From a virus: a stretch of DNA of 25,355 nt. Every line of letters begins with the position of its first letter. Position 1 is the first letter of the stretch. The notes beneath the pieces are model-generated. The model was not told the origin of the DNA and made no database searches. It was given only the letters and a program-made list of their open reading frames with translations. The translations under genes and the position numbers were made by a program. Shown piece after piece: positions 1,090 to 20,153 of the stretch. The stretch is taken from positions 1 through 25,355 of IMG/VR virus record IMGVR_UViG_3300044638_003463; one strand, 5' to 3'.

Positions 1090-2268
1090 TTAGGGCATCG
1101 GGAAGAGCTTAGGATACAACCGCACGCGCTTAGTGTTGGTCGGCAGAACTGGCCCCATATCGACCACAAAACGGTGGCTCAAGTCGCGAGGATAGCCATT
1201 GTTGAGACTGGTAAACGATGTGCTTGGCACGTCTGTCCATGTGATGCCGTCATCACTCCACTGTGGCGCAAAATACCAAGTGACAAACATTCTGGTGGCG
1301 GCTGGCACTGCTGTCAGGTAGGCCGTCCGCACTCCGCCCGCTTCCACGATCTGCACCGATGGCCCGGTGGCTGGCAGGCGCCGCGATGACATCGGATTGC
1401 CTCCGTAAATCATCTCTTCAAAGTTGGTAAAGCCGTCGCCGTCCGGATCGTTGTACAGGCCGTCACTGCCTACGGTGATTGCATACGCCGCCTTGAATGC
1501 GGTAAAGTTGGCGGTGGCCACAGTAGAGACCGCCGTTGTCGGGTCATCTGTCAGGTAGACGTTTGCTCCGCTACCAAAGATTTCAGACGCCCCGCCTGCC
1601 AATCCATAGCGCGCATACCCAAGCCCAACACGCTGCATCAATGCCGTCTCCTCTGGCCCCCAGACTGCTCCACCGGCAGGCGGCCAGTAGGAGATGCCGT
1701 CGTATCCTTGGTTTTTGAAAGTGGTTAAACCTGCCTCTCCAAACGCCGATGGCGGCCCGGTCGCGATCCAATAGATGGACACGGTTGGGAAGTATGGCCG
1801 CATGGTTGCGGCGCTTACCGACGGGAAGAACAGACCGGCCAAGAGCGTGACGCGCTCAAGCGGAAAGCCCGCCTGTTGAATTGCGTTCAACATAGCGTTC
1901 TCTGTACCGGCCACCTTCGGCTCGATCATGACGCGCACCCGATACGGTTTAATCGCAAGCAACGCCTCCACCAGCGTCGGCACCTGCTGCCCGGCATACG
2001 ATGGCCCAAAATCGACCCCTGCATCCAGCGCCTTGATCTGTGCCAGCGTTTTTCCCACCACTGTCCCGGTCCCGTTGGTCGTGCGATCGACCGTCGCATC
2101 GTGAATACAGACCGGTACGCCGTCAGATGTCAGGTGCAGGTCAAGCTCAATCATCGCAACGCCCGCCTTCGCAACGGCATTGTAGCTCTGCACGGTGTGC
2201 TCTGGCTGGCCTAGAAGGTTGCCACGGTGTGAGCGAAGCTCAGCAAGATATGGTTCGCGGTTGTTCAT
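1090..2268 (-). CDS. Glycerophosphodiester phosphodiesterase-like tail protein with TSP3-like C-terminal region
   Basis: A 392-residue protein. ATG 2268 is chosen because it overlaps the preceding stop as ATGA; upstream in-frame codons only shadow the previous gene. Residues ~10-250 match the GDPD TIM-barrel family. The HRG motif is at 14-16, followed by PEHT, then IELD with E41 and D43, SDG, CIHD with H56, and MIEPK with E116. The expected acidic metal ligands and both catalytic histidines are therefore present. The family hydrolyses glycerophosphodiesters, so the phage enzyme may attack phosphodiester-containing surface glycans or lipid headgroups during adsorption. From ~272 to 291 there is a DPDGDG...NFEE segment like a calcium-binding thrombospondin type 3 repeat, then a beta-rich C-terminus. 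There is no signal peptide, as expected for a virion protein. Virion attachment is inferred from the flanking fibre genes. Confidence 0.8.
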   Translation of the reverse strand: MNNREPYLAELRSHRGNLLGQPEHTVQSYNAVAKAGVAMIELDLHLTSDGVPVCIHDATVDRTTNGTGTVVGKTLAQIKALDAGVDFGPSYAGQQVPTLVEALLAIKPYRVRVMIEPKVAGTENAMLNAIQQAGFPLERVTLLAGLFFPSVSAATMRPYFPTVSIYWIATGPPSAFGEAGLTTFKNQGYDGISYWPPAGGAVWGPEETALMQRVGLGYARYGLAGGASEIFGSGANVYLTDDPTTAVSTVATANFTAFKAAYAITVGSDGLYNDPDGDGFTNFEEMIYGGNPMSSRRLPATGPSVQIVEAGGVRTAYLTAVPAATRMFVTWYFAPQWSDDGITWTDVPSTSFTSLNNGYPRDLSHRFVVDMGPVLPTNTKRVRLYPKLFPMP

Positions 2269-3992
2269 ACTGAAGGAGCCCCCATCGCTATAGCCAGATT
2301 GAAAAGCATCAAAGAGAATGTATCCGTTGCCGCGCCAGTAGTACCAATGGCCCGGCCAATATAGAAGAGAGACGAAGGCTGGTTGTGCAGGATGCCTCCC
2401 GGCCCAAGTAGGCTGCCGGTCGTGTTGCCGTTGTAGAAGAGAAACCCGCCCAGCTTGTTGTCCCGGATAATGGCGTTTGCGTTGGTGTTTGAAGTCGTCA
2501 AGTCGGTCGTGTCTGCGATACCCGCCGCCAGCCGTCTCCGGGTGCTGAATAGCGTCCCCTTGCGAGCAAAGTGGATCAAGCCCAGCGGATTTAACGCGCC
2601 CACCGTTCCACCCACATAAAGCTCTGGCAGGCCAAGGTTCACGTGCAAACTGCCGCCCGTCGATCCAACCGCCGCCCGGAACACGCCCGGCGTGGTCGTG
2701 CTGCGTGACGTGGTAAACCACCGATTCGTTCCGCCCGAGACTGCATCGTTCCGCGCACCGATCATGGTGTTGTCGTCCGTCAGCGGTGGCGAGTGTGAGT
2801 AGTAGGTTAATGAGTAATCCGTCTCTTCCCATACTTGTGCCACGGTTGAGTCAAAGTCGATCATGCCGGAGTTGGTCACTCCGGTCGGCGCGATGTATCC
2901 GCCCGGCTGCGTAAAGTCTCCGGCGTTGTTGGCGCCGGTCGATGAGTTGCGAATGAATGGTCGGCTGGAGCTTGCCGGGTGCAGCCAGTCGAGAAGATTG
3001 GCCTGCATGTTGCTGGCCCAAACTGGCAGCATTAGACGCGAGCGGCTGGTATTGCCGCTGATCATGCCCATTGCGTCCACGTACTGGTAGAACGTGTTAA
3101 TGGCGACGATCTGCGCATCGGTAAGCGTGACGCCTGCATCATTGAGGGATAGTAGCGTGTCGCGCCCAGAACGCGGCACACGCGCCAGATCCAGCAGGAG
3201 ATTGATTGATGCCCAGTGTGAGAGAGTGCCGCCTGCATCGCCAAGAGGAACGCCAAGCGTGTCCGTGAGCGACGGCGCCACCGTTGGCAGTGAATGCACC
3301 TCAGAGAATGAATGCGTGTGTGATGGCGGCACACCGCCCGCACCGCTGATCAATTGCCAGTCGCCAGCCGTGACGCCAATCGAAACCCACACTTCCAGCG
3401 TATCGACCTGCACGCCGATAAGCCCGAGCTTGTAAGGAACCGACGCCAGCCGCGCCTGCGTGTTGGCGAATGATTCAGTCCCGCCGGCGCTTTGCGCCAC
3501 CGCCCCGTAGACGATTCCGTTGATGTTGCGGAATGAGTAGACATCCGTCCTCGCTCCTATGCTCTGCACCGGGATTGAGTCGTTCGGCCATTTGATTGTC
3601 CCTGGCCACGTGATGATGTAGTTGCCGCTCGTGTTCGTCACCGCAACCGTGATCCCTTGACCCGGTAGCGCGTTCGAAAATGTGAACGTCGTATTTGCCG
3701 CAAGTGTCTTGTAAAAGCTCGTACTGGTCGCCCAGTCGATGGCTGCGGCGGTCACGTTGGCATCCGTACCGACTACCGCACGCACCGTCAGCTTACCCTG
3801 CACCGTCTGGTCAGTGGTGAACGTGTTGGCAGTTCCGACTAGCGCCGCCGAAAGCGTAGTAATCACGCCCGATCCGTTGAACCCAATCGCCTTGTTGGTG
3901 TTCGCCGTCCCTAGCAGATCAATAAATTGATTGTCGCCGGAGGCATCGCGTTGGATCAGGGAAACATTTCTTGGCGTGGTGACGGCACTCAT
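2265..3992 (-). CDS. Large tail fibre protein (575 aa)
   Basis: It starts at ATG 3992, which shares a base with the preceding TAA (TAATG), and ends overlapping the phosphodiesterase-like start by four bases. Residues 1-70 end in an ANTFTTDQTVQGKLTV segment typical of phage fibre repeats. Residues ~86-165 form a beta domain widespread in phage fibres (FYKTLAANTTFTFSNALPG, then ITWPGTIKWPN and DVYSF). Residues ~175-215 follow another common fibre pattern ending AGDWQL. HTHSFSEV at 225-232 resembles the His motifs of tail-collar domains. The C-terminal ~250 residues (WEETDYSLTYYSHSP onward) look like a concanavalin/LamG-type carbohydrate-binding sandwich, which suggests the receptor-contacting tip. 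It is the largest fibre in the window and a plausible host-range determinant. The exact receptor cannot be read from the sequence. Confidence 0.75.
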   Translation of the reverse strand: MSAVTTPRNVSLIQRDASGDNQFIDLLGTANTNKAIGFNGSGVITTLSAALVGTANTFTTDQTVQGKLTVRAVVGTDANVTAAAIDWATSTSFYKTLAANTTFTFSNALPGQGITVAVTNTSGNYIITWPGTIKWPNDSIPVQSIGARTDVYSFRNINGIVYGAVAQSAGGTESFANTQARLASVPYKLGLIGVQVDTLEVWVSIGVTAGDWQLISGAGGVPPSHTHSFSEVHSLPTVAPSLTDTLGVPLGDAGGTLSHWASINLLLDLARVPRSGRDTLLSLNDAGVTLTDAQIVAINTFYQYVDAMGMISGNTSRSRLMLPVWASNMQANLLDWLHPASSSRPFIRNSSTGANNAGDFTQPGGYIAPTGVTNSGMIDFDSTVAQVWEETDYSLTYYSHSPPLTDDNTMIGARNDAVSGGTNRWFTTSRSTTTPGVFRAAVGSTGGSLHVNLGLPELYVGGTVGALNPLGLIHFARKGTLFSTRRRLAAGIADTTDLTTSNTNANAIIRDNKLGGFLFYNGNTTGSLLGPGGILHNQPSSLFYIGRAIGTTGAATDTFSLMLFNLAIAMGAPSV

Positions 3993-5684: not shown

Positions 5685-6028
5685 CGCACTTTGGAATCTT
5701 GGCTCGACTTGTTAGCGTCCCGCGCAGCAATCAAACCAGCGCCGGCTATAATCTCGCCAGTTGCCAGTTGCAGCCCTTCCAGCGTCAGCGGCACCCCATC
5801 GGTCACCTGCAAGAGCGCATCGACCACAGCGCCTAATCCGTGCAAAATAAGAGCCACCCCCGCCAGCGTCGTTTTCCAGTTGAGCAGGAAAGGCAGGATC
5901 TTGTTGGATAGCCATTTCATGGTCGTGCTGTGGATGATGTTTGATTTGATGACCGGCCTACCTGCAAGATCTTCCGCGCGCCGGACTTCTGGCCGCTTGC
6001 CAAAGATTGGATGACCGAGCGTGCGCAT
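5681..6028 (-). CDS. Holin-like small membrane protein (115 aa)
   Basis: Start ATG 6028 shares a base with the preceding TGA (TGATG). A later in-frame Met (MKWLSNK, residue 37, at 5920) could be the true start of the conserved part, because the first 36 residues are basic and unconserved-looking. From there NWKTTLAGVALILHGLGAV gives one membrane helix, and TGEIIAGAGLIAARDANKSS gives a second, ending in the GLIxARD signature. That layout is common in small phage and prophage holin-like proteins. It would make the inner-membrane lesions that release the M15 endolysin. It overlaps the lipoprotein gene downstream by four bases. The holin role is inferred from topology and location. Confidence 0.65.
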   Translation of the reverse strand: MRTLGHPIFGKRPEVRRAEDLAGRPVIKSNIIHSTTMKWLSNKILPFLLNWKTTLAGVALILHGLGAVVDALLQVTDGVPLTLEGLQLATGEIIAGAGLIAARDANKSSQDSKVR

Positions 6029-6324
6029 CAAGGATTGAGCTTGTTGTCAATTTTGTCGAGCTTCTCGACGATTGACCGCAGCAGTTGCGTGTCCGCCGAG
6101 TCTTTAATCTCCAGATTGCGGACTGTGCTGTTGGTCGCGCCAATCGCATCCTTCACGTCCCTGAGCGATTCCGTCTGCCTGTTGATCGCGATCTGGATTG
6201 CCGCCACCCATGTGCCCAGCATAAATGCGCCGACAAGCAGCGCCCAGCCTAGTTTGACCACTAAGTCGAGGATCTTGAGCTTTGACTCAAAATCCTGAAG
6301 TTGTTCGCGCGTGACAGGTTCCAT
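6028..6324 (-). CDS. Membrane protein with periplasmic coiled coil (98 aa), lysis cassette
   Basis: Starts at ATG 6324 after the 99-nt gap holding the tRNA-like element. A short N-terminal helix (EQLQDFESKLKI) precedes one membrane span at about 20-46 (LVVKLGWALLVGAFMLGTWV...). The rest (~50-98) is a likely coiled coil, with heptad-like ESLRDVKDAIG and LLRSIVEKLDKIDNKL. A single N-terminal anchor with a C-terminal coiled coil is the layout of Rz-type i-spanins. XhlA-like haemolysin proteins use the reverse order. With the lipoprotein at 5520-5684 it could make a two-component spanin, although the usual nested Rz/Rz1 arrangement is absent. It is the first gene of the lysis cassette and has its own start-associated TTGACA 19 nt upstream. 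Confidence 0.6.
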   Translation of the reverse strand: MEPVTREQLQDFESKLKILDLVVKLGWALLVGAFMLGTWVAAIQIAINRQTESLRDVKDAIGATNSTVRNLEIKDSADTQLLRSIVEKLDKIDNKLNP

Positions 6325-6343: not shown

Positions 6344-6349
6344 TGTCAA
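6344..6349 (-). promoter_or_regulatory. Start-associated TTGACA hexamer, 19 nt before ATG 6324
   Basis: The coding strand reads CATTGACAGAC immediately after the CCA end of the tRNA-like element. The hexamer lies 19 nt before ATG 6324. It shares TTGACAGAC with the copy before ATG 20133 and the 19-nt spacing with the copy before ATG 1062. Confidence 0.5.
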
Positions 6350-6910: not shown

Positions 6911-7663
6911 TTATGAGCCTAGAACCAAGATGTTGACGTTGAGACCGTTGGTTCCGTTAAGGAGAACAGTCAGCGTTTGGGTCGTTGCCGACTTCCTGCC
7001 TGTTGGCGTGGTGTAGATGAATGAACCACCCTCGTAAATTGGCAATGGCACCGACGTGTTTGTCACCACTCCACCGAACCCGTCGCTCTTGATCTGCGCG
7101 CAGATGAGGCCGGTGATGGTCCAGTCGGCCAAGGTGCCAGTGCCGCCAATCGTGTCCACCGCCACCGTCAAAGTGGTCGAGGCGTAGCTGGTCACAGTGC
7201 CTTCCATAAAGTTTGCGGCGTTGGCTGCTGATGTGGCGCGAACTCGCATGTTTGCAACGTAGCCCAATGATGGCGCAACAGTGAACGCTTTAGACGCCAC
7301 CTCGATGGCCAGCGAGGTCGTCGATGCGGCAGTCGGACGAACCGAAGTAGGCGCAACCGCTGGATCGCGCCGCGTCACGGTAATATAAAGCCCGCGCCAG
7401 TAGTTGAACGCCAGAGTGGCGTTGGTAATTGGATTCGTCAGTGCAACGGCAGAGCCGCCGTTGAGTACCGAGTTGACGGTTGTGCCGCTGGTGGCCAGCG
7501 TGTTTGCTCCAGTGCCCGGCACGCCAAACACCTCGAACACCCCGGAAATCAGATCCTCTTCACGCACCACCAAGTCAGGCACTTGCTGAGTTGCGGAGGG
7601 AATGACCGAGTTGCCCGGATAGCTGTTTTGCGCTTTAAGCGTCAACGCGAAGATGTTCGGCAT
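6911..7663 (-). CDS. Virion-associated beta-rich protein (250 aa)
   Basis: Starts at ATG 7663, with TTGACA exactly 14 nt upstream and a 23-nt gap from the previous gene. The N-terminus (MPNIFALTLKAQNSYPGNSV, then VPDLVV) aligns by eye with the start of the 160-aa neighbour. The remaining ~200 residues are Thr/Val/Ala-rich beta segments (SLAIEVASKAFTVAPS, FMEGTVTSYASTTLTVAVDT, TQTLTVLLNGTNGLNVNI). This is the style of tail-fibre shaft or tip proteins, without enzymatic motifs. As an uncoupled start between the glycine-rich fibres and the smaller paralogue it may open a new translation unit. The specific function is unknown. Confidence 0.6.
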   Translation of the reverse strand: MPNIFALTLKAQNSYPGNSVIPSATQQVPDLVVREEDLISGVFEVFGVPGTGANTLATSGTTVNSVLNGGSAVALTNPITNATLAFNYWRGLYITVTRRDPAVAPTSVRPTAASTTSLAIEVASKAFTVAPSLGYVANMRVRATSAANAANFMEGTVTSYASTTLTVAVDTIGGTGTLADWTITGLICAQIKSDGFGGVVTNTSVPLPIYEGGSFIYTTPTGRKSATTQTLTVLLNGTNGLNVNILVLGS

Positions 7664-7677
7664 AAAATGCGGGGTTG

Positions 7678-7683
7678 TGTCAA
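7678..7683 (-). promoter_or_regulatory. Start-associated TTGACA hexamer, exactly 14 nt before ATG 7663
   Basis: The coding strand reads GATTGACACAA in the gap after the TAA of the previous gene. Exactly 14 nt separate the hexamer from ATG 7663. No Shine-Dalgarno-like purine run lies at the usual distance. The six bases after the ATG (CCGAAC), where a -10 box would fall at 17-nt spacing, are not promoter-like. Confidence 0.6.
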
Positions 7684-10983: not shown

Positions 10984-12753
10984 TTAAGCGGCTGCAAGGT
11001 TTTTCAAAATGTCTCTGATGTCCACAAGCGTTGCCTCTTTAGGAAGAGCGTCGGCCCATTTTGGCGTGATGTTTTTTCTCGCTTGTTCACGGAATGCTTC
11101 GCGATCTGTTTTTTCCCGTTCAAGGATATTCCTGCCCTTGTTCTTTTCCTCGGCCTCTTTCTTAAGCCGGGTCATTTCGTCCCGCACGTCGTCATTGAAC
11201 GCCCTCCGCCGTTGGCGCTGCATGTCGTTGTTGTCCCGCATCTCCTGCTTCCTTTCGGCTGGCGTGCGTCCCGCCTTTTCGATCGAGCGTTGCACGGCTT
11301 CGCGGTTTTGGTCTCGCAGTTCAAGAGCCCCTCTCTCGGCTTCGTCTGTAATGCTTTGCTCAAGTCCGAGAATCTCTTCTTTGAGACCGATGATGCGGTT
11401 GTACTGCTCCACTTGACCTTCTGTCACGTTGCGACCGTTTTTGACCGCATCCTCGAACGCCGAGACGGTTAGCTTGTCGAACCCGCCCGGATCGTCGCCC
11501 ATTAAAACATCGCCTTCTGCCTTCAGTGCTTCTTGAGCATTGGTCAGCTTCTCCGCATCAGATCCGGCCATGGACTGCTGAGCCGAGTACACCGCCTCCT
11601 GTACGCTTTTGATTTTGCGCACCGTGTCCTCGTGCAAGCTCAGCAGCTCCTTGGCGTCGGAGATCGCTTGATCGGCTGCCTTCTTGGCGTCGTCTTGTGT
11701 TTGCTTCTCCTTGGCAGCGTCTTCTTGATTGAACCGCTCCTCATTCTGCCACTTGATAGCGTCCAGCTCGCGGTTCTCCTGATTGCCTTTGTCTAAAGCC
11801 TCTTGGAGTTTCTTGCGCTCTTCCGCTGCCTTCAAAGAGTCCGCTTCCGCTGCTTTCTGGCGGTCCAATGCGCGAAGAAGTTTCCTTTGATCTTCATCTT
11901 CAATAGAAACACTACTGCCCAAAAACTTTAGAGAAACCGCTTCTTCGTTAGCTTTAATCTCATTTTGTTTTTTGATTATATAATCTAAAGAGGCCGACAG
12001 CCCGCCTGCAAGCATTTTTGTAAATCCAGAACTGCTTTCTCCGGTCATCTCTTTTAACGTATCAAATTTTGCTTTGATAGCATCAATTTGACCGCCTAGC
12101 CCGCGTTCCAATTTAGGCATGGCCTCAGCCATTTTCAGCAATGTTTCAGCCACCTGCTTTCCGCTTAGGTTCAGCTTCTGCAAGTCCTCCGCGCGAGCCG
12201 ATCCAAACGCTTGAGTGAGAAGTTTAGCGGTGACTGGAAGAGCTTCTTTCAACTGACCAAGCTCTTCCGCCAACGGTTTAGGCGATGCGTAAAGCTGTTG
12301 CAAGCCGTAGATAAACCGGCCCAGCTCTTCGCTTCCTCCACCCCCTGAACCGATTGCATTCTGGAGCGTTCTGATCGTCTTGAATGCGTTCGCTGCACTC
12401 ATGCCTGCGGCCTGAAGTTGAAGCGTTGCCTTCGCCGCAACACCCATATTTAGACCGATTTCAGATGAAAGCTTTTTGAGCTGCTCATATTGCTGCATCC
12501 CCAAAAAGTCATTGCCTGCTGTGGCCTTTAACGCGTTTTGGAGTTTTTCCGCTTCGATGTAGGTTGAGGTAATGTCCTTTGCCACAGAAACAAAAGCCGA
12601 CCCGATGGCGCCACCGATAGCAATGTTCTTCAGCATCGAGAACGTTGCCGACATCTTCGACACCGCCGCATTCGTGTTCTTCATGGCACCGTCCAGCCCG
12701 GTCGTAAATTGACTGGAATCGAGCCTGAGTGATGCGTCTAGCGTAGCTGCCAT
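10984..12753 (-). CDS. Tail tape measure protein (589 aa)
   Basis: Starts at ATG 12753 with TTGACA exactly 14 nt upstream. Residues ~1-240 match the tape-measure N-terminal domain: LRLDSSQFTTGLDGAMKNT, membrane-like LKNIAIGGAIGSAFVSVA at 42-58, and LQAAGMSAANAFKTIRTLQN. Residues ~285-430 are a long charged coiled coil (RQKAAEADSLKAAEERKKLQ), and the C-terminal part is also strongly helical and charged. The tape measure sets tail length and is ejected with DNA. At roughly 1.5 angstroms per residue, 589 residues would give a tail near 90 nm. The chaperone frameshift pair directly upstream is the canonical context. The segment 11900-12080 is noticeably AT-richer than its surroundings. Confidence 0.9.
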   Translation of the reverse strand: MAATLDASLRLDSSQFTTGLDGAMKNTNAAVSKMSATFSMLKNIAIGGAIGSAFVSVAKDITSTYIEAEKLQNALKATAGNDFLGMQQYEQLKKLSSEIGLNMGVAAKATLQLQAAGMSAANAFKTIRTLQNAIGSGGGGSEELGRFIYGLQQLYASPKPLAEELGQLKEALPVTAKLLTQAFGSARAEDLQKLNLSGKQVAETLLKMAEAMPKLERGLGGQIDAIKAKFDTLKEMTGESSSGFTKMLAGGLSASLDYIIKKQNEIKANEEAVSLKFLGSSVSIEDEDQRKLLRALDRQKAAEADSLKAAEERKKLQEALDKGNQENRELDAIKWQNEERFNQEDAAKEKQTQDDAKKAADQAISDAKELLSLHEDTVRKIKSVQEAVYSAQQSMAGSDAEKLTNAQEALKAEGDVLMGDDPGGFDKLTVSAFEDAVKNGRNVTEGQVEQYNRIIGLKEEILGLEQSITDEAERGALELRDQNREAVQRSIEKAGRTPAERKQEMRDNNDMQRQRRRAFNDDVRDEMTRLKKEAEEKNKGRNILEREKTDREAFREQARKNITPKWADALPKEATLVDIRDILKNLAAA

Positions 12754-12764
12754 GAACTTGTTGC

Positions 12765-13016
12765 TTATGTCAATGAGTTGACAAGCCTGCTCGTCTTACG
12801 TTGCTGGATGTAATCCATCGCGTTCTTGATGGTCTCGTCCTCCATCATGTCGTGTCCAACCCACTGGGTTTCGATGCCTTCTTTGACTAGCGCGATGTGC
12901 AAGTATGCAAGCCCGCGACACAGCGGCAACTCCCACAGAATCTCCTGCTCCGTCAGTCCAGTGATTGGCCGCACCAGCGAAACATAGTGCGCTTGAAAGA
13001 CCGGACTGGCTAACGC
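12765..13016 (-). CDS. Tail assembly chaperone extension (gpGT-like), reached by -1 frameshift
   Basis: This frame has no credible start codon of its own between the end of the 150-aa chaperone gene and its conserved part. It is entered by a -1 ribosomal slip at GGGAAAG (13022-13016). After the slip the next codon reuses G13016 (GCG) and 83 residues follow, beginning ALASPVFQAHYVSLVRPITG. The fusion product is 149 + 83 = 232 residues. In lambda and most long-tailed phages the frameshifted G-T protein helps load the tape measure and assemble tail tubes; the extension binds the tail tube protein. The stop lies 11 nt from the tape-measure ATG, the usual arrangement. A helical C-terminus (IKNAMDYIQQRKTSRLVN) is visible. 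Confidence 0.85.
   Translation of the reverse strand, partial: ALASPVFQAHYVSLVRPITGLTEQEILWELPLCRGLAYLHIALVKEGIETQWVGHDMMEDETIKNAMDYIQQRKTSRLVNSLT
12768..12773 (-). promoter_or_regulatory. Start-associated TTGACA hexamer, exactly 14 nt before ATG 12753
   Basis: The coding strand reads CATTGACATAA. The TTG ACA codons are the last two residues before the TAA of the chaperone extension, so the hexamer overlaps coding sequence. The exact 14-nt distance to the tape-measure ATG matches four other gene starts. The gap after the stop is 11 nt and shows no clear Shine-Dalgarno sequence. Confidence 0.6.
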
Positions 13017-13862: not shown

Positions 13863-14267
13863 TTAAACGACGAATGGGTACTGTTTAACCGAGAAGGTAG
13901 TCTTGGCCATTTCGGTATTCGTCTCGGAGCGATTCGGGTCCATGAAGATCATGGTGCCATCCGCTGGAACGAATCCGTAGGTGTTCGCGGTAAAGTTGGC
14001 CAGCGTGGTGACTTGCGTTCCTGGGTGCTGGTTGGCTAGGCCGGTCGTCTTGTTGGACAGGTAACCGTCGAACGCAAAAGTGATCGTTGGGTTGCGGTAC
14101 TCAAGCCCAAAGGTGGCCCCAGCGGCGTTCAGGTAAGCCTTCTCGTCACGCGCAGCCGTGATCGTCAAAGACTGAACGAGGATGTCTGGAGTAACGGCAT
14201 TGCTCTCATCCAGCAGCGTTGAGGATGGAATGTTTCCGTGTTGAATCAAAGCGGCGACGGCAGGCAT
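13863..14267 (-). CDS. Putative major tail (tube) protein (134 aa)
   Basis: ATG 14267 has TTGACA exactly 14 nt upstream. The 134-residue product is a compact beta protein with the feel of tube proteins: TPDILVQSLTITAARDEKAY, then FGLEYRNPTITFAFDGYLS, and a C-terminal strand pair FVPADGTMIFMDPNRSET then FSVKQYPFVV. Its order after the tail terminator and before the chaperones matches lambda V and HK97 gp13-type tube genes. At 134 residues it is shorter than lambda gpV (246) because no C-terminal Ig-like domain is present. It would stack as hexamers around the tape measure. The call is by context and fold style, not by clear homology. Confidence 0.65.
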   Translation of the reverse strand: MPAVAALIQHGNIPSSTLLDESNAVTPDILVQSLTITAARDEKAYLNAAGATFGLEYRNPTITFAFDGYLSNKTTGLANQHPGTQVTTLANFTANTYGFVPADGTMIFMDPNRSETNTEMAKTTFSVKQYPFVV

Positions 14268-14281
14268 ATTTTAAGAGTTGA

Positions 14282-14287
14282 TGTCAA
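14282..14287 (-). promoter_or_regulatory. Start-associated TTGACA hexamer, exactly 14 nt before ATG 14267
   Basis: The hexamer follows the TGA of the tail-terminator gene with no base between (TGATTGACATCA), so it is entirely non-coding here. Its 14-nt spacing to the tail-tube ATG is therefore not a by-product of codon use. This is the cleanest example of the motif in the window. Confidence 0.65.
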
Positions 14288-16299: not shown

Positions 16300-17256
16300 T
16301 TAAGCGGTAAGAGCTTCGTCGTTGAGGATGGAATCGGTGATGACGATCGGGATGCCGTTCGACTCAGTAGGTAGAGGGGCAAAGATCTCAGAACCGCTAG
16401 AGGTTTTGACACCGTTTTGAACCGTGGAAGCTGAGCGGCTGACCTGCAACTGGAAGGCCGAGCGGCGGTTCATGAGCCAGTAATTAGGCCGGTAGCCCAC
16501 TGGGTATTTGCTAAGCAACTCAGCAAGTTTGGCGTCGGTGACACCCATACCCGAATCAGCGGTAGCGTCTTTCAGGCGGCCCACGCTGTACTTGCTGCCG
16601 ACCTGCATACCCACCCAAGCGGTCAAGTTAGCAACGTGCGCAGGATAGACCGAGTCGGTTCCCACGTTTTCGATGCGCCATTCGCCAAGCTCAAAAGTGG
16701 TGCCGGAGCCGAACACGAGCTGTACGCCTTGCGTATCAGTATTGATGCCGTACACCGAAGAGCCAGTACCAGCACTTGTTCCGCCTGCATCGACCGTTAG
16801 CGCGGAAGCACCCAGACCGGAGTTAAAAGCGGTATGGATAGCCTGCAAGCCGGGAAAGCCCTTCGCATCAACAGACGTTCCATAGATGACCTGTGAACCA
16901 AGCTCGATCATGGCTTGGCGCATGACGCCGATAGATTCGATGTCTTTCCATGCTTGTTCTCCGTCCTCGTAAGCGCGAGCGACCGCAATATCGGCCTGAA
17001 CGGCGCCACTGAGAATGTAGCACTCGATCAACTGGTTTTCAAAGCTCGATTTCGTCGGAGTCGAGCCTTCGTTAGCAGCGCGGAACCCGACGCCAGGATA
17101 AGACGTGCGAGAGACGACTTTGTAGCTGGTGCCGCGAATGGTGCGCGCTGGCATGATCTGCACCTCGGGAGCGTAGGTGAGGGTTTCCTCAATCAGCCCG
17201 ACGATGGTGTCGGAGCCGTTGAGCTTAGCGATATCGAGAAGATTGGCTTGTGGCAT
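16300..17256 (-). CDS. Major capsid protein, HK97-fold (318 aa)
   Basis: Starts at ATG 17256, 18 nt after the protease-scaffold stop. The N-terminal residues (ANLLDIAKLNGSDTIVGLIE) form the start of an N-arm or spine-helix region. GVGFRAANEGSTPTKSSFEN at ~57-76 and QADIAVARAYEDGEQ look like the E-loop and spine-helix features of HK97-fold coats. Residues YWLMNRRSAFQLQVSRSAS (~257-275) and the end GIPIVITDSILND are typical of major capsid proteins of this kind. At 318 residues it is normal for a lambda-sized head. With no separate maturation cut site visible, the scaffold would be removed by the upstream protease. The call rests on fold-like motifs plus synteny. Confidence 0.85.
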   Translation of the reverse strand: MPQANLLDIAKLNGSDTIVGLIEETLTYAPEVQIMPARTIRGTSYKVVSRTSYPGVGFRAANEGSTPTKSSFENQLIECYILSGAVQADIAVARAYEDGEQAWKDIESIGVMRQAMIELGSQVIYGTSVDAKGFPGLQAIHTAFNSGLGASALTVDAGGTSAGTGSSVYGINTDTQGVQLVFGSGTTFELGEWRIENVGTDSVYPAHVANLTAWVGMQVGSKYSVGRLKDATADSGMGVTDAKLAELLSKYPVGYRPNYWLMNRRSAFQLQVSRSASTVQNGVKTSSGSEIFAPLPTESNGIPIVITDSILNDEALTA

Positions 17257-17274: not shown

Positions 17275-17685
17275 TTATGAGTTGGCCGAAACGTAAGCCG
17301 CTTCGGTTGGGAATTTTTCGGTGAACGCACGAACCGCTTTCAAGCGATCGAGACCGGTTGAGGTGCCGATAGCTTGATTCTTGGCTTCGTGGTAGGAGAT
17401 CGCTGGAACCTTGACTTCCGGCTCGTTAATAGGAGCGGCAAACGCAGCAGGAGCAGGAGCGGCGGCGGCGAGGCGAGCTTGCAGCTCAATGTCGCTGTTA
17501 CCAGCTTGCAACGCTTCCACGTAGGCCTTAAGTGCCTCACACTCGGCGAGCACTTTTGCGTTGTCGGCGGCAAACTGCGTAGCCACTTCGTCAAACTTAG
17601 CAGTGAAAGCGGCGAACTGCTCCGCAATCAGAGCGGAAAAATCAACTTGAGGTTCTGGCGCAGGCGCCGGTGGGTCAATTGGCAT
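17275..17685 (-). CDS. Separate scaffold from in-frame internal start (Nu3-like, 136 aa)
   Basis: An internal ATG at 17685 (residue Met168 of the fusion) is in frame with the protease-scaffold gene and lies precisely at the end of the protease domain. A TTGACA hexamer at 17705-17700 precedes it by exactly 14 nt, the same spacing as at five full-length gene starts here. The product (MPIDPPAPAPEPQVDFSALI...) would be the free 136-residue scaffold with the Pro/Ala linker and coiled coil. Lambda makes Nu3 from an internal in-frame start of gene C in the same position, so a scaffold excess would be biologically expected. Protein evidence is lacking, so this is a strong prediction rather than an observation. 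Confidence 0.65.
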   Translation of the reverse strand: MPIDPPAPAPEPQVDFSALIAEQFAAFTAKFDEVATQFAADNAKVLAECEALKAYVEALQAGNSDIELQARLAAAAPAPAAFAAPINEPEVKVPAISYHEAKNQAIGTSTGLDRLKAVRAFTEKFPTEAAYVSANS

Positions 17686-18186
17686 AACATCTTCGTCACT
17701 GTCAATCTGATCAGCCGAGAACACGCCGTCAGCGTTAGCGGCGGGTGTGTCTACAAAGTCTGCCGAGTATAGACCGCGTGGGCGGGTCATGTAGTTGCCG
17801 CTCTCCTTGTCCAACTCTGGCGCATCCGCTGCAAACATCAAACTCACGCCGAAAGTGGAGGGGATTTCGTTGATCATTTCAAGCAGCATCTCTTTTCCGC
17901 TGTGCGCGTCGAATAAAGTCAGATCGGCTAGGAGCTTGCCTTTACTGACCCGGAAATTCTCGTAATAACCCACCGTATCCTGCACCGAAGAGAAGTGATT
18001 AAGCTTTGCCTTCACCCTTCCCTTCTCGATTGCGAGTGACTTAAACTTGTTCAGCGAACGCTTGTCCACAAACACGCCATGACCGAGCGCCGGGCCTTCC
18101 TGAATCAAGGAAACGCCCATGATGGTATTTCCTGAAACCTTGCCTTGGAACGCTGCGAATGTCTGAATCTCTTCGGTGACTGGCAT
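17275..18186 (-). CDS. Head maturation protease fused to scaffold (303 aa)
   Basis: ATG 18186 lies 16 nt after the portal stop, with TTGACA exactly 14 nt upstream. The long in-frame extension above it is an Arg-rich shadow of portal and is rejected. Residues ~1-160 match herpes-assemblin-like prohead proteases. The likely catalytic His is H64 in KLNHF, the likely Ser is S115 in FGVSLMF, and an Asp-containing YSADFVDTPAA motif sits at 140-150. From ~168 onward the sequence becomes acidic and proline-rich (PPAPAPEPQ), then a coiled coil (LIAEQFAAFTAKFDEVATQF, then KVLAECEALKAYVEALQ), as in scaffolds. The lambda parallel is gene C with Nu3 at its 3' end. The protease would cleave scaffold and head proteins during maturation. 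Confidence 0.85.
   Translation of the reverse strand: MPVTEEIQTFAAFQGKVSGNTIMGVSLIQEGPALGHGVFVDKRSLNKFKSLAIEKGRVKAKLNHFSSVQDTVGYYENFRVSKGKLLADLTLFDAHSGKEMLLEMINEIPSTFGVSLMFAADAPELDKESGNYMTRPRGLYSADFVDTPAANADGVFSADQIDSDEDVMPIDPPAPAPEPQVDFSALIAEQFAAFTAKFDEVATQFAADNAKVLAECEALKAYVEALQAGNSDIELQARLAAAAPAPAAFAAPINEPEVKVPAISYHEAKNQAIGTSTGLDRLKAVRAFTEKFPTEAAYVSANS
17700..17705 (-). promoter_or_regulatory. Internal start-associated TTGACA hexamer, exactly 14 nt before ATG 17685
   Basis: Within the protease-scaffold gene the coding strand reads GATTGACAG. In frame it encodes Ile-Asp-Ser, so it could be coincidental. Its exact 14-nt distance to an in-frame ATG at the scaffold boundary argues otherwise. 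Confidence 0.55.
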
Positions 18187-18200
18187 ACACGCCGCCCCGA

Positions 18201-18206
18201 TGTCAA
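18201..18206 (-). promoter_or_regulatory. Start-associated TTGACA hexamer, exactly 14 nt before ATG 18186
   Basis: The TGA of TTGACA is the portal stop codon (GAT TGA CAT). Exactly 14 nt follow before the protease ATG, and they contain TCGGGGCGG, whose G run could also act as a weak Shine-Dalgarno sequence. Confidence 0.6.
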
Positions 18207-19861
18207 TCAGTGCTGCCAGCCTCGGCTTCGTCCTCGGCAATGTCTTCGGCCTCGTCCTCTGGCGACTCTTCATCCTCGACTTCTGGCACGTCCTCCTCAG
18301 GCGCAGCCGCTGGCGCCGGGATAGCCGGCGCGTTAGGTGCCCGCCGCTCAAGCATGTAGATGGCAGTTGGCAGATCCAGCACGCCGCCGGATGCGTCTTG
18401 CACCATCTTCGCATCTTCGACCAGCTCCATCGCCTCCGCGCGAAGCAGGCTGCGAATGATGTTGCGATCCTCACCGCGATCCGCCGCAATCTGCGTCTTG
18501 CTGATAATTCCGGCCATGGTCTCGTCGATCAGAGCTTTGGATTCGCGCCCGATGTCGGCTGTGACTTTGGCAGGAAAACGCCATTCACCCGCATCAAAGT
18601 CAGCCACGGCTGGCAAGTGGCCGAGCTGGATGCCGCGAGCAATGACGCGGATAACGATCGGATACAGAAGCTTTTCCTCCAGCGTTAGCTGGGTCATTTC
18701 AAACTCCCGCGCGGCCTGCGCAGCTTCCATCCTGACCGCTGTCCCTTGTCCCGCCCAGGAGTAGATAAATCCGTAAGGCAGCCCGACGGCAAGTCCGGTC
18801 GAGCGAACGAGAGTGTCCAAGAACCCGTTAAAAGTCGGTGACGGGCGGTTGAAATCAACCGGGTTGAACGATTCACCCTCTGCAAGGTACTGGATCGCAC
18901 CCGGCTCGACCTTCTTCATGCGGTCGGCGTCGCTCATGTAGTCGCTGTGCGTCGTGTCGAGCGATACGTCTTGATCGGCGCTGCCGTCCGCATTGTTGAT
19001 GACACCGCTGATTGAAGAGAGATACTTCACTGAGATTTTCTCACATGCGAGGATCTCTTGCAGATCCTTGATGTCAGTGATAGCTGCGTCGAACGCGGAA
19101 AAGCCTCGGTAAGAATCAAGCCGGGTCGGGTCGAACAAGTGCAGGAACTCCTGCGCCGGCACCTCAAGCGCAGGCATCATGGACTCACCGGTTGTGCTGC
19201 GGTTGTAGATGCGGTATCGGATCGGCCTACCCGTCGAGTCGATGACAACGCCGGAAAAGTCCTGCTCGCCTCTCTTGAGCGGCTTGAACGGTTTTGCATC
19301 TGTCCCGTTGCGGTTTGGAATTGAGCCAATGCGGTCAGCCTCGATGGCCTGTAGCCGGATCGGACTGATTTTCAGCATCTCGTCGAGCTGCGTCATCGGC
19401 ACTTCGGACACGATGTAACCGATGTCACCGTCCCGCTTCATCGAGGTCACGCCCAAACCGGCCAGCACCCGAAAGTGGTGGCGCCGGGTCAAGTCGCAGC
19501 TCGCCATCCACCGCTCAACATACGCTGTGATCGCCCTGTTGGCTTCCTCGGAGCTTGTGCGCGGCACGTACTGCAAGCGGCCCACCGAAAAGGTGCGGTA
19601 CTTGCGCAGGATGCTTTTAACCACACTGCTATTCTCTTCCAGCCACCGAGCCTCCCGGATGAGCGTCACCCGGTCGGTATGGTTGCGGCTGGAATCTGGC
19701 TGATCAAGTGATTGCCCGCTCGCCCGGCGATTGGTCGATGATTGCGCTCCGACGCGCCAGTAGCCCGTCCTTTCGCCCGCCTCAAGCTGCGCCTTCGCGC
19801 GTTGGCGTTGCAAGGCGGTTGCCGGACTGAAAAACCTGATCGTTTGTTCGATAAAACTCAT
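18203..19861 (-). CDS. Portal protein, lambda gpB-like (552 aa)
   Basis: ATG 19861 overlaps the gpW-like stop as ATGA. The lambda-type portal signature is clear. There is an N-terminal helix-rich clip region and ARWLEENSSVVKSILRKY at 71-88. QAIEADRIGS at 171-180 is the conserved IEADRI motif, and HLFDPTRLDSYRGFS at 241-255 is also typical. SWAGQGTAVRMEAAQAAREF near 368-387 lies where other lambda-type portals carry a Ser/Arg/Glu-rich helix. The portal ring forms the DNA channel at one head vertex and binds terminase and connectors. The last ~50 residues are strongly acidic and Pro/Ala-rich (EEDVPEVEDEESPEDEAEDI), probably disordered. The length is close to lambda gpB (533). Confidence 0.92.
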   Translation of the reverse strand: MSFIEQTIRFFSPATALQRQRAKAQLEAGERTGYWRVGAQSSTNRRASGQSLDQPDSSRNHTDRVTLIREARWLEENSSVVKSILRKYRTFSVGRLQYVPRTSSEEANRAITAYVERWMASCDLTRRHHFRVLAGLGVTSMKRDGDIGYIVSEVPMTQLDEMLKISPIRLQAIEADRIGSIPNRNGTDAKPFKPLKRGEQDFSGVVIDSTGRPIRYRIYNRSTTGESMMPALEVPAQEFLHLFDPTRLDSYRGFSAFDAAITDIKDLQEILACEKISVKYLSSISGVINNADGSADQDVSLDTTHSDYMSDADRMKKVEPGAIQYLAEGESFNPVDFNRPSPTFNGFLDTLVRSTGLAVGLPYGFIYSWAGQGTAVRMEAAQAAREFEMTQLTLEEKLLYPIVIRVIARGIQLGHLPAVADFDAGEWRFPAKVTADIGRESKALIDETMAGIISKTQIAADRGEDRNIIRSLLRAEAMELVEDAKMVQDASGGVLDLPTAIYMLERRAPNAPAIPAPAAAPEEDVPEVEDEESPEDEAEDIAEDEAEAGSTD

Positions 19862-20133
19862 AGCGGAAAGGTTGAAAAGTCAGGTTTGAGGCGGTTGGAG
19901 ATACCCGGATACTTTACGGGGTCGAGCTGGTGCATTCTGCGCATCACAGCCCGCATCAAAGTCATGACGGGAATGCCGCCATCCGATCCAGATGCGCGGG
20001 TTTCGGACTCACCGCCGCCCGATGTGCTGATAACGATGGTGCCCTGCCCTTCGGTCAGCGCCGAAAGACACTGATCGTAAAGCGTCTCGCAAAATTGCAG
20101 AGAAGCATACCGTAAAATCGAAGGTCCGCCCAT
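19858..20133 (-). CDS. Putative head-tail joining protein, gpW-like (91 aa)
   Basis: ATG 20133 lies 16 nt after the terminase stop, with TTGACA exactly 14 nt upstream. A far upstream in-frame reading would run antisense-like through terminase and is rejected. Lambda gene W lies in the same slot, between A and B. The product has a first helix (LRYASLQFCETLYDQCLSAL) and a Gly-rich beta-hairpin (GQGTIVISTSGGGESETRAS). A second helix follows (PVMTLMRAVMRRMHQLDPVK), then a tail, STFPL. This helix-hairpin-helix order corresponds to gpW (68 aa). The hairpin GTIVISTSGGGESE is longer than in lambda. gpW-type proteins stabilise packaged DNA and bridge portal and connector. Family homology is by layout and position only. 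Confidence 0.65.
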   Translation of the reverse strand: MGGPSILRYASLQFCETLYDQCLSALTEGQGTIVISTSGGGESETRASGSDGGIPVMTLMRAVMRRMHQLDPVKYPGISNRLKPDFSTFPL

Positions 20134-20147
20134 AAAGTCACTCTGTC

Positions 20148-20153
20148 TGTCAA
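20148..20153 (-). promoter_or_regulatory. Start-associated TTGACA hexamer, exactly 14 nt before ATG 20133
   Basis: The TGA inside the hexamer is the stop codon of the large terminase (GCT TGA CAG). The 14 nt to the gpW-like ATG include GAGTGAC, a possible weak Shine-Dalgarno-like run. The context TTGACAGAC is shared with the copy before ATG 6324. Confidence 0.6.

Follow-up and report, generated by a model that had tools for sequence, protein, structure and literature searches.

In bacteriophage lambda, the scaffold Nu3 arises from an in-frame start located inside the gene of the protease C. In herpesviruses, the protease UL26 and the scaffold UL26.5 likewise come from one gene and have a common C terminus, UL26.5 being made from a separate transcript. 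The protease C of lambda is of the S49 type (PMC10695390), and in-frame scaffold starts have also been reported for I/Z of phage Mu and, as a putative start with a Shine-Dalgarno sequence, for PaMx73 (PMC4378225).

The stretch of DNA analysed here (the window) is a virus record of 25,355 bases that carries its structural genes on the minus strand. It shares with lambda the gene order terminase, W position, portal, protease/scaffold and major capsid, and a scaffold of similar size would be encoded, in the same reading frame, by the 3' end of its capsid protease gene. Two features that characterize nested protease/scaffold genes are present, namely the placement of the gene between those for the portal and the major capsid protein and an in-frame start codon at the protease-scaffold boundary. 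The sequence-only reading had located ATG 17685 in frame as codon 168, exactly 14 nt behind a TTGACA hexamer and at a domain boundary. These placements proved correct: the ATG is codon 168 of ORF 18186-17275, the hexamer occupies 17705-17700 with a spacer at 17699-17686, and the site lies between a conserved N-terminal domain and a Pro-rich linker followed by a helical C-terminal region (Table 1). We consider it highly probable that gene 17275-18186 yields two in-frame products, with internal initiation at Met168 giving a nested scaffold of 136 aa, and the gene is best read as one that would work like lambda Nu3 or Mu Z.

Table 1. Features of the protease-scaffold locus and of the TTGACA-N14 starts in the window.
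Feature	Position	Strand	Remarks
Full-length protease-scaffold gene	17275..18186	minus	303 aa, ATG 18186; flanked by the genes for portal and major capsid protein; distant match to phrog_976 (head maturation protease)
Major capsid protein (Pfam GP7)	16300..17256	minus	directly downstream of protease-scaffold gene
Lambda-family portal	18203..19861	minus	directly upstream of protease-scaffold gene
Invariant His64, candidate catalytic residue	17995..17997	minus	from conservation
Invariant Ser115 (FGVSLMF), candidate nucleophile	17842..17844	minus	from conservation
Internal ATG, codon 168	17683..17685	minus	invariant in relatives, inside variable linker
Predicted nested in-frame scaffold coding sequence from Met168	17275..17685	minus	136 aa, begins MPIDPPAPAPEPQ
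Predicted long helix, residues 184-227, likely coiled coil	17506..17637	minus	structure model, moderate confidence
Helical C-terminal part (residues 265-302), probably binding the capsid	17281..17394	minus	pLDDT ~80
Start motif GATTGACA before internal ATG	17700..17707 (TTGACA 17700-17705)	minus	14 nt upstream; synonymously invariant
14-nt spacer at internal start	17686..17699	minus	length constant, letters vary
TTGACA-N14 before full-length protease start	18201..18206	minus	overlaps portal stop codon
TTGACA-N14 before gene 19858-20133 (91 aa, lambda W position)	20148..20153	minus	
TTGACA-N14 before gene 13863-14267 (134 aa, tail region)	14282..14287	minus	
TTGACA-N14 before tape measure gene 10984-12753	12768..12773	minus	
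TTGACA-N14 before gene 6911-7663 (250 aa)	7678..7683	minus	

The protease itself differs from that of lambda, as it matches neither S49 nor Clp and its gene shows no Shine-Dalgarno sequence at the internal start. No Pfam family matched it, S49 or Clp Pfam matches were obtained in 0 of 25 members, and since the S49 domain was looked for and not found, the gene falls outside the lambda C family. A sequence search of the PDB returned nothing useful, and Foldseek gave no significant match for two low-confidence AlphaFold models, which were too poor for fold assignment. A His and a Ser (His64 and Ser115) that could form a catalytic pair of the assemblin type are invariant, while these low-confidence models gave no fold match. 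The assignment as a protease was based on gene position, on the conserved His and Ser and on a weak match to the phrog_976 profile (12 of 16 members, best E 1e-5; window protein E 0.04), and a remote relationship to the phrog_976 head maturation proteases is proposed with moderate confidence. Compared with Mu I/Z and the Mu-like Pseudomonas phages such as PaMx73, whose starts are preceded by a Shine-Dalgarno sequence at about 8-9 nt, the window has TTGACA at 14 nt and a protease of another family.

To follow the internal start through related phages, 64 viral contigs with relatives were collected which, together with the window, represent 44 distinct sequences; two further contigs, L119 and L132, were added via the capsid protein, raising the number to about 46. 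The relatives covering the site span 58-100% amino acid identity, most being more than 85% identical. One of the six search patterns used (DEDVMPID) spanned Met168; many relatives without that peptide came from the other patterns, and further scans were made without it. Met168 and the hexamer are both present in every one of the approximately 46 distinct relatives that cover the site. ATTGACA was found in 44 of 44 distinct sequences and, apart from one contig that stops short of the ATG, each of them has an ATG at the 14-nt spacing; ATTGACA-N14-ATG is also retained in L119 and L132, which are 58-59% identical overall. The surrounding residues vary, with DEDV, EEND or DEPV upstream and MPID, MGDP, MVEP or MLTE downstream of the boundary. 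Because many relatives are close to each other, these counts are not independent, and the codon-level and cross-phylum arguments given below weigh most.

At the codon level, Ile161 is encoded by ATT in 38 of 38 full-length sequences, although ATC is the preferred codon in the gene (301 versus 167). Asp162 is always GAC and codon 160 always ends in G. Codon 163 encodes Ser, Thr, Asn or Lys and invariably begins with the A that forms the last base of the hexamer. Just 8 of the 135 comparable upstream codons are synonymously invariant, and codons 160-162 are among the invariant ones. This pattern indicates that selection at codons 160-163 acts on the nucleotides and not on the protein alone. A start signal under nucleotide-level selection is hence present at the internal start in the form of TTGACA-N14 and not of a Shine-Dalgarno sequence. 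The comparison proposed in the sequence-only reading, which expected Met168 and the hexamer to be kept more strictly than neighbouring synonymous sites, was thereby borne out.

The hexamer by itself is not enriched in the window (13 found versus 13.2 expected). Exactly 14 nt before an ATG, the coding strand has six copies where 0.15 would be expected (P ~1e-8), and the other strand has none. In an unbiased scan of every 6-mer at every spacing from 0 to 25 nt before ATG, TTGACA at 14 nt was the top-ranked pair in the window and also in three divergent relatives. Five or six TTGACA-N14-ATG sites, all on the coding strand, were present in 11 of 12 records, and in seven related genomes the sites mark the same six starts and none elsewhere, G003 having only five. 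These are the starts of the 91-aa gene at the lambda W position, the protease, codon 168, the 134-aa tail-region gene, the tape measure and the 250-aa gene. The distance to the ATG is strict, being 14 nt at 40 sites and 15 nt at a single one, with no site at 13 nt, and the wider consensus reads G(A/C)TTGACA-N13-T-ATG. Since orthologous sites are not independent, the effective number is that of the six start classes. Judged from this distribution, TTGACA-N14-ATG is a genuine start mark, and as its five other members are gene starts, the internal site belongs to a class of starts. One such site alone is modest evidence; its conservation is decisive.

A low-stringency search of named phages extended the comparison to Bacteroides and Bacillus/Geobacillus phages, and profile-profile comparison with hhalign supported both relationships (E 3e-8 to the GBK1/Finn group and E 4e-8 to the Bacteroides phage group). 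The protease-scaffold proteins of the Bacillus/Geobacillus phages GBK1, Finn, Eoghan and Bolokhovo (phrog_976) are remote homologues whose boundary Met is placed much as it is here; unlike in the window, their start has an AAGGAGG-type Shine-Dalgarno sequence, and they are otherwise diverged in sequence. Such a sequence stands ahead of the Met at the boundary in all eight Bacillota homologues that have this Met, for instance AAGGAGG before Met301 of GBK1. Under the loose definition used, Shine-Dalgarno-like strings precede 11% of in-frame codons. A ninth Bacillota protein, from phiT1, has no boundary Met and shows a plausible GTG start with GAGGTG. Among the Bacteroidota homologues, found upstream of the major capsid gene in BK735P4 and its relatives, one boundary Met is invariant in 8 of 8; in contrast to the window, its upstream context is A+T-rich (70-85%) without a fixed motif. 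Boundary starts in the homologues of both phyla suggest that the nested start is ancient in this protease family and that its signal has been re-fitted to the host. Homologous boundary starts would then exist in phages infecting three groups of hosts, and the local start signal would differ from group to group. As regards annotation, the scaffold or head maturation protease genes of Geobacillus, Bacillus and Staphylococcus phages (L265-L272) carry a strong internal Shine-Dalgarno sequence and Met at the domain boundary that are not annotated as a start. The Bacteroides-type proteins of Bacteroides, Phocaeicola and Parabacteroides phages (L264, L274-L280), remote homologues with an invariant internal Met just upstream of the major capsid gene, are labelled 'hypothetical', and 137 named phage records carry proteins of this type.

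Comparison of individual relatives placed a module boundary at the same codon. The protease parts of L046 and L053 are 99% identical and the parts after Met168 only 21%, and L132 and L119 pair a more distant protease (67%) with a second scaffold type. This split and these combinations argue that the scaffold is exchanged as a unit beginning at the Met168 start. Furthermore, the mRNA near codon 168 is less structured than around about 96% of the gene's codons (mean of 12 sequences), several members differing little. Phages sharing the capsid protein also carry different protease modules at the same position. In L145/L240, where the relative's capsid protein is 68% identical, an S49 protease is followed by a separate gene for a scaffold-like coiled-coil protein of 133 aa, close in size to the nested product and weakly similar in sequence; the homology of the two scaffolds is only suggestive (15 columns), and TTGACA-N14-ATG was not found in the L145 genome. 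The L241 group has a Clp-type protease-scaffold with a boundary Met, and in L259 the protease belongs to a further head-protease family and its boundary Met lies in A/C-rich surroundings. Altogether, at least four protease modules occur upstream of the major capsid gene in L240, L241, L242, L244, L246 and L259, several of them fused ones with a Met at the protease-scaffold boundary.

Other origins of a free scaffold were weighed against internal initiation. Head maturation proteases often cleave themselves off their scaffold tail, and Met168, which is predicted to fall within a flexible linker, might simply mark such a self-cleavage site with residues conserved for cleavage, proteolysis being the only source of scaffold. 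We regard this as very unlikely, given that the residues on either side of Met168 vary freely, that ATT and GAC are synonymously fixed while codon 163 changes its residue yet keeps its first A, and that five other gene starts carry the same 14-nt spacing. Even less credit can be given to a chance match held in place by protein constraint and recent common ancestry, which we find scarcely believable. The high identity of most relatives and the approximately 0.15 such sites expected per genome strand could accommodate it, but synonymous change is ample elsewhere (127 of 135 conserved codons vary), the site is kept by relatives whose protease domain is 67% identical, and homologues from two further phyla carry start signals of a different kind at this position.

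Two further explanations accept the motif and assign it another role. TTGACA equals the -35 consensus of sigma-70 promoters, so that the scaffold could come from its own transcript, as herpesvirus UL26.5 does. With the hexamer beginning 20 nt ahead of the ATG, however, the matching -10 box would come to lie in the coding sequence and transcription would begin past the ATG; the region contains no promoter-like pair, the spacer shows no -10 pattern, and the 14-nt spacing to the ATG is constant in six unrelated genes. On the basis of this geometry, the missing promoter pair and the spacer logo, the -35 box was rejected as a reading of the motif, and transcription of the scaffold from such a promoter is most improbable. 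A more serious, if still doubtful, contender is an operator for an RNA- or DNA-binding late-gene regulator of the phage, in which case the hexamer would not recruit ribosomes and Met168 would still be a start. The restriction of the motif to six late-gene starts and its unusually strict spacing would suit such an operator; against it, no candidate regulator was identified, and the internal start would remain in any case.

Internal initiation at Met168 thus stays the preferred explanation, and we infer that this start is used, that the protein made from it is a scaffold and that translation is the step at which the motif acts. The Nu3-like hidden start put forward in the sequence-only reading is supported by conservation, synonymous constraint, module exchange, low RNA structure and the starts in other phyla, with the qualification that the protease is not of the lambda type (S49/ClpP). 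Most likely, one late mRNA would be translated into both products, with the same motif ahead of each start: initiation at ATG 18186 would give the 303-aa protease joined to the scaffold tail, and initiation at ATG 17685 the 136-aa scaffold alone. The latter start would be directed by GATTGACA, which lies 14 nt ahead of it in a stretch of mRNA with little structure. The predicted C-terminal helical part probably binds the capsid protein and, being common to both products, would bring a few protease copies into a procapsid built mostly on free scaffold, which these copies would later digest. The arrangement would thereby resemble that of UL26/UL26.5, differing in that internal translation is proposed here in place of a separate transcript. 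It is best filed as a nested design of known type that combines another protease family with another start signal, the start motif being the more novel part. Gene callers miss nested scaffold starts; the present one, in an uncultured phage, was predictable from its start motif and could be checked by conservation.

The host is probably a member of the Verrucomicrobiota, as inferred solely from the nearest named phages, Verrucomicrobia phage P8625 and Akkermansia phage Chantilly; scans of genome collections with the protease profile and the terminase as queries revealed no host or prophage. Members scarce in Shine-Dalgarno sequences have been reported in this phylum (PMC10783764), which fits the missing Shine-Dalgarno sequences at the starts of the window. 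We lean slightly towards GATTGACA-N14-ATG being an undescribed, strictly spaced, non-Shine-Dalgarno translation-initiation element for selected late genes in phages of such Verrucomicrobiota. The internal scaffold start would be its cleanest natural proof, as a site inside a coding sequence cannot be a gene-border effect. A literature search returned no description of a TTGACA-like start motif or of Shine-Dalgarno use in Verrucomicrobiota phages, an absence that is not thereby proven, and the motif was not found in either P8625 or Chantilly. It raises the question of how the ribosomes of Shine-Dalgarno-scarce bacteria pick their starts.

Several other sequences were observed in front of genes. 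In the window, TTGACA at 1082-1087 and 6344-6349 (minus strand) lies 19 nt before genes 817-1062 and 6028-6324, representing either a looser spacing class or chance. At three gene starts of P8625 (L184; 5448, 10772 and 15594), TTGACA is followed by an inverted repeat of the type GTATCC...GGATAC just before the ATG, resembling a regulated promoter or start. Early genes of the related phage L228 often have an A/C-rich sequence such as CACAACC just before the ATG, unlike the late TTGACA class. Finally, the tail-region protein encoded at 1090-2832 (minus strand) contains a glycerophosphodiester phosphodiesterase domain together with a weak match to bacterial TSP3 repeats.
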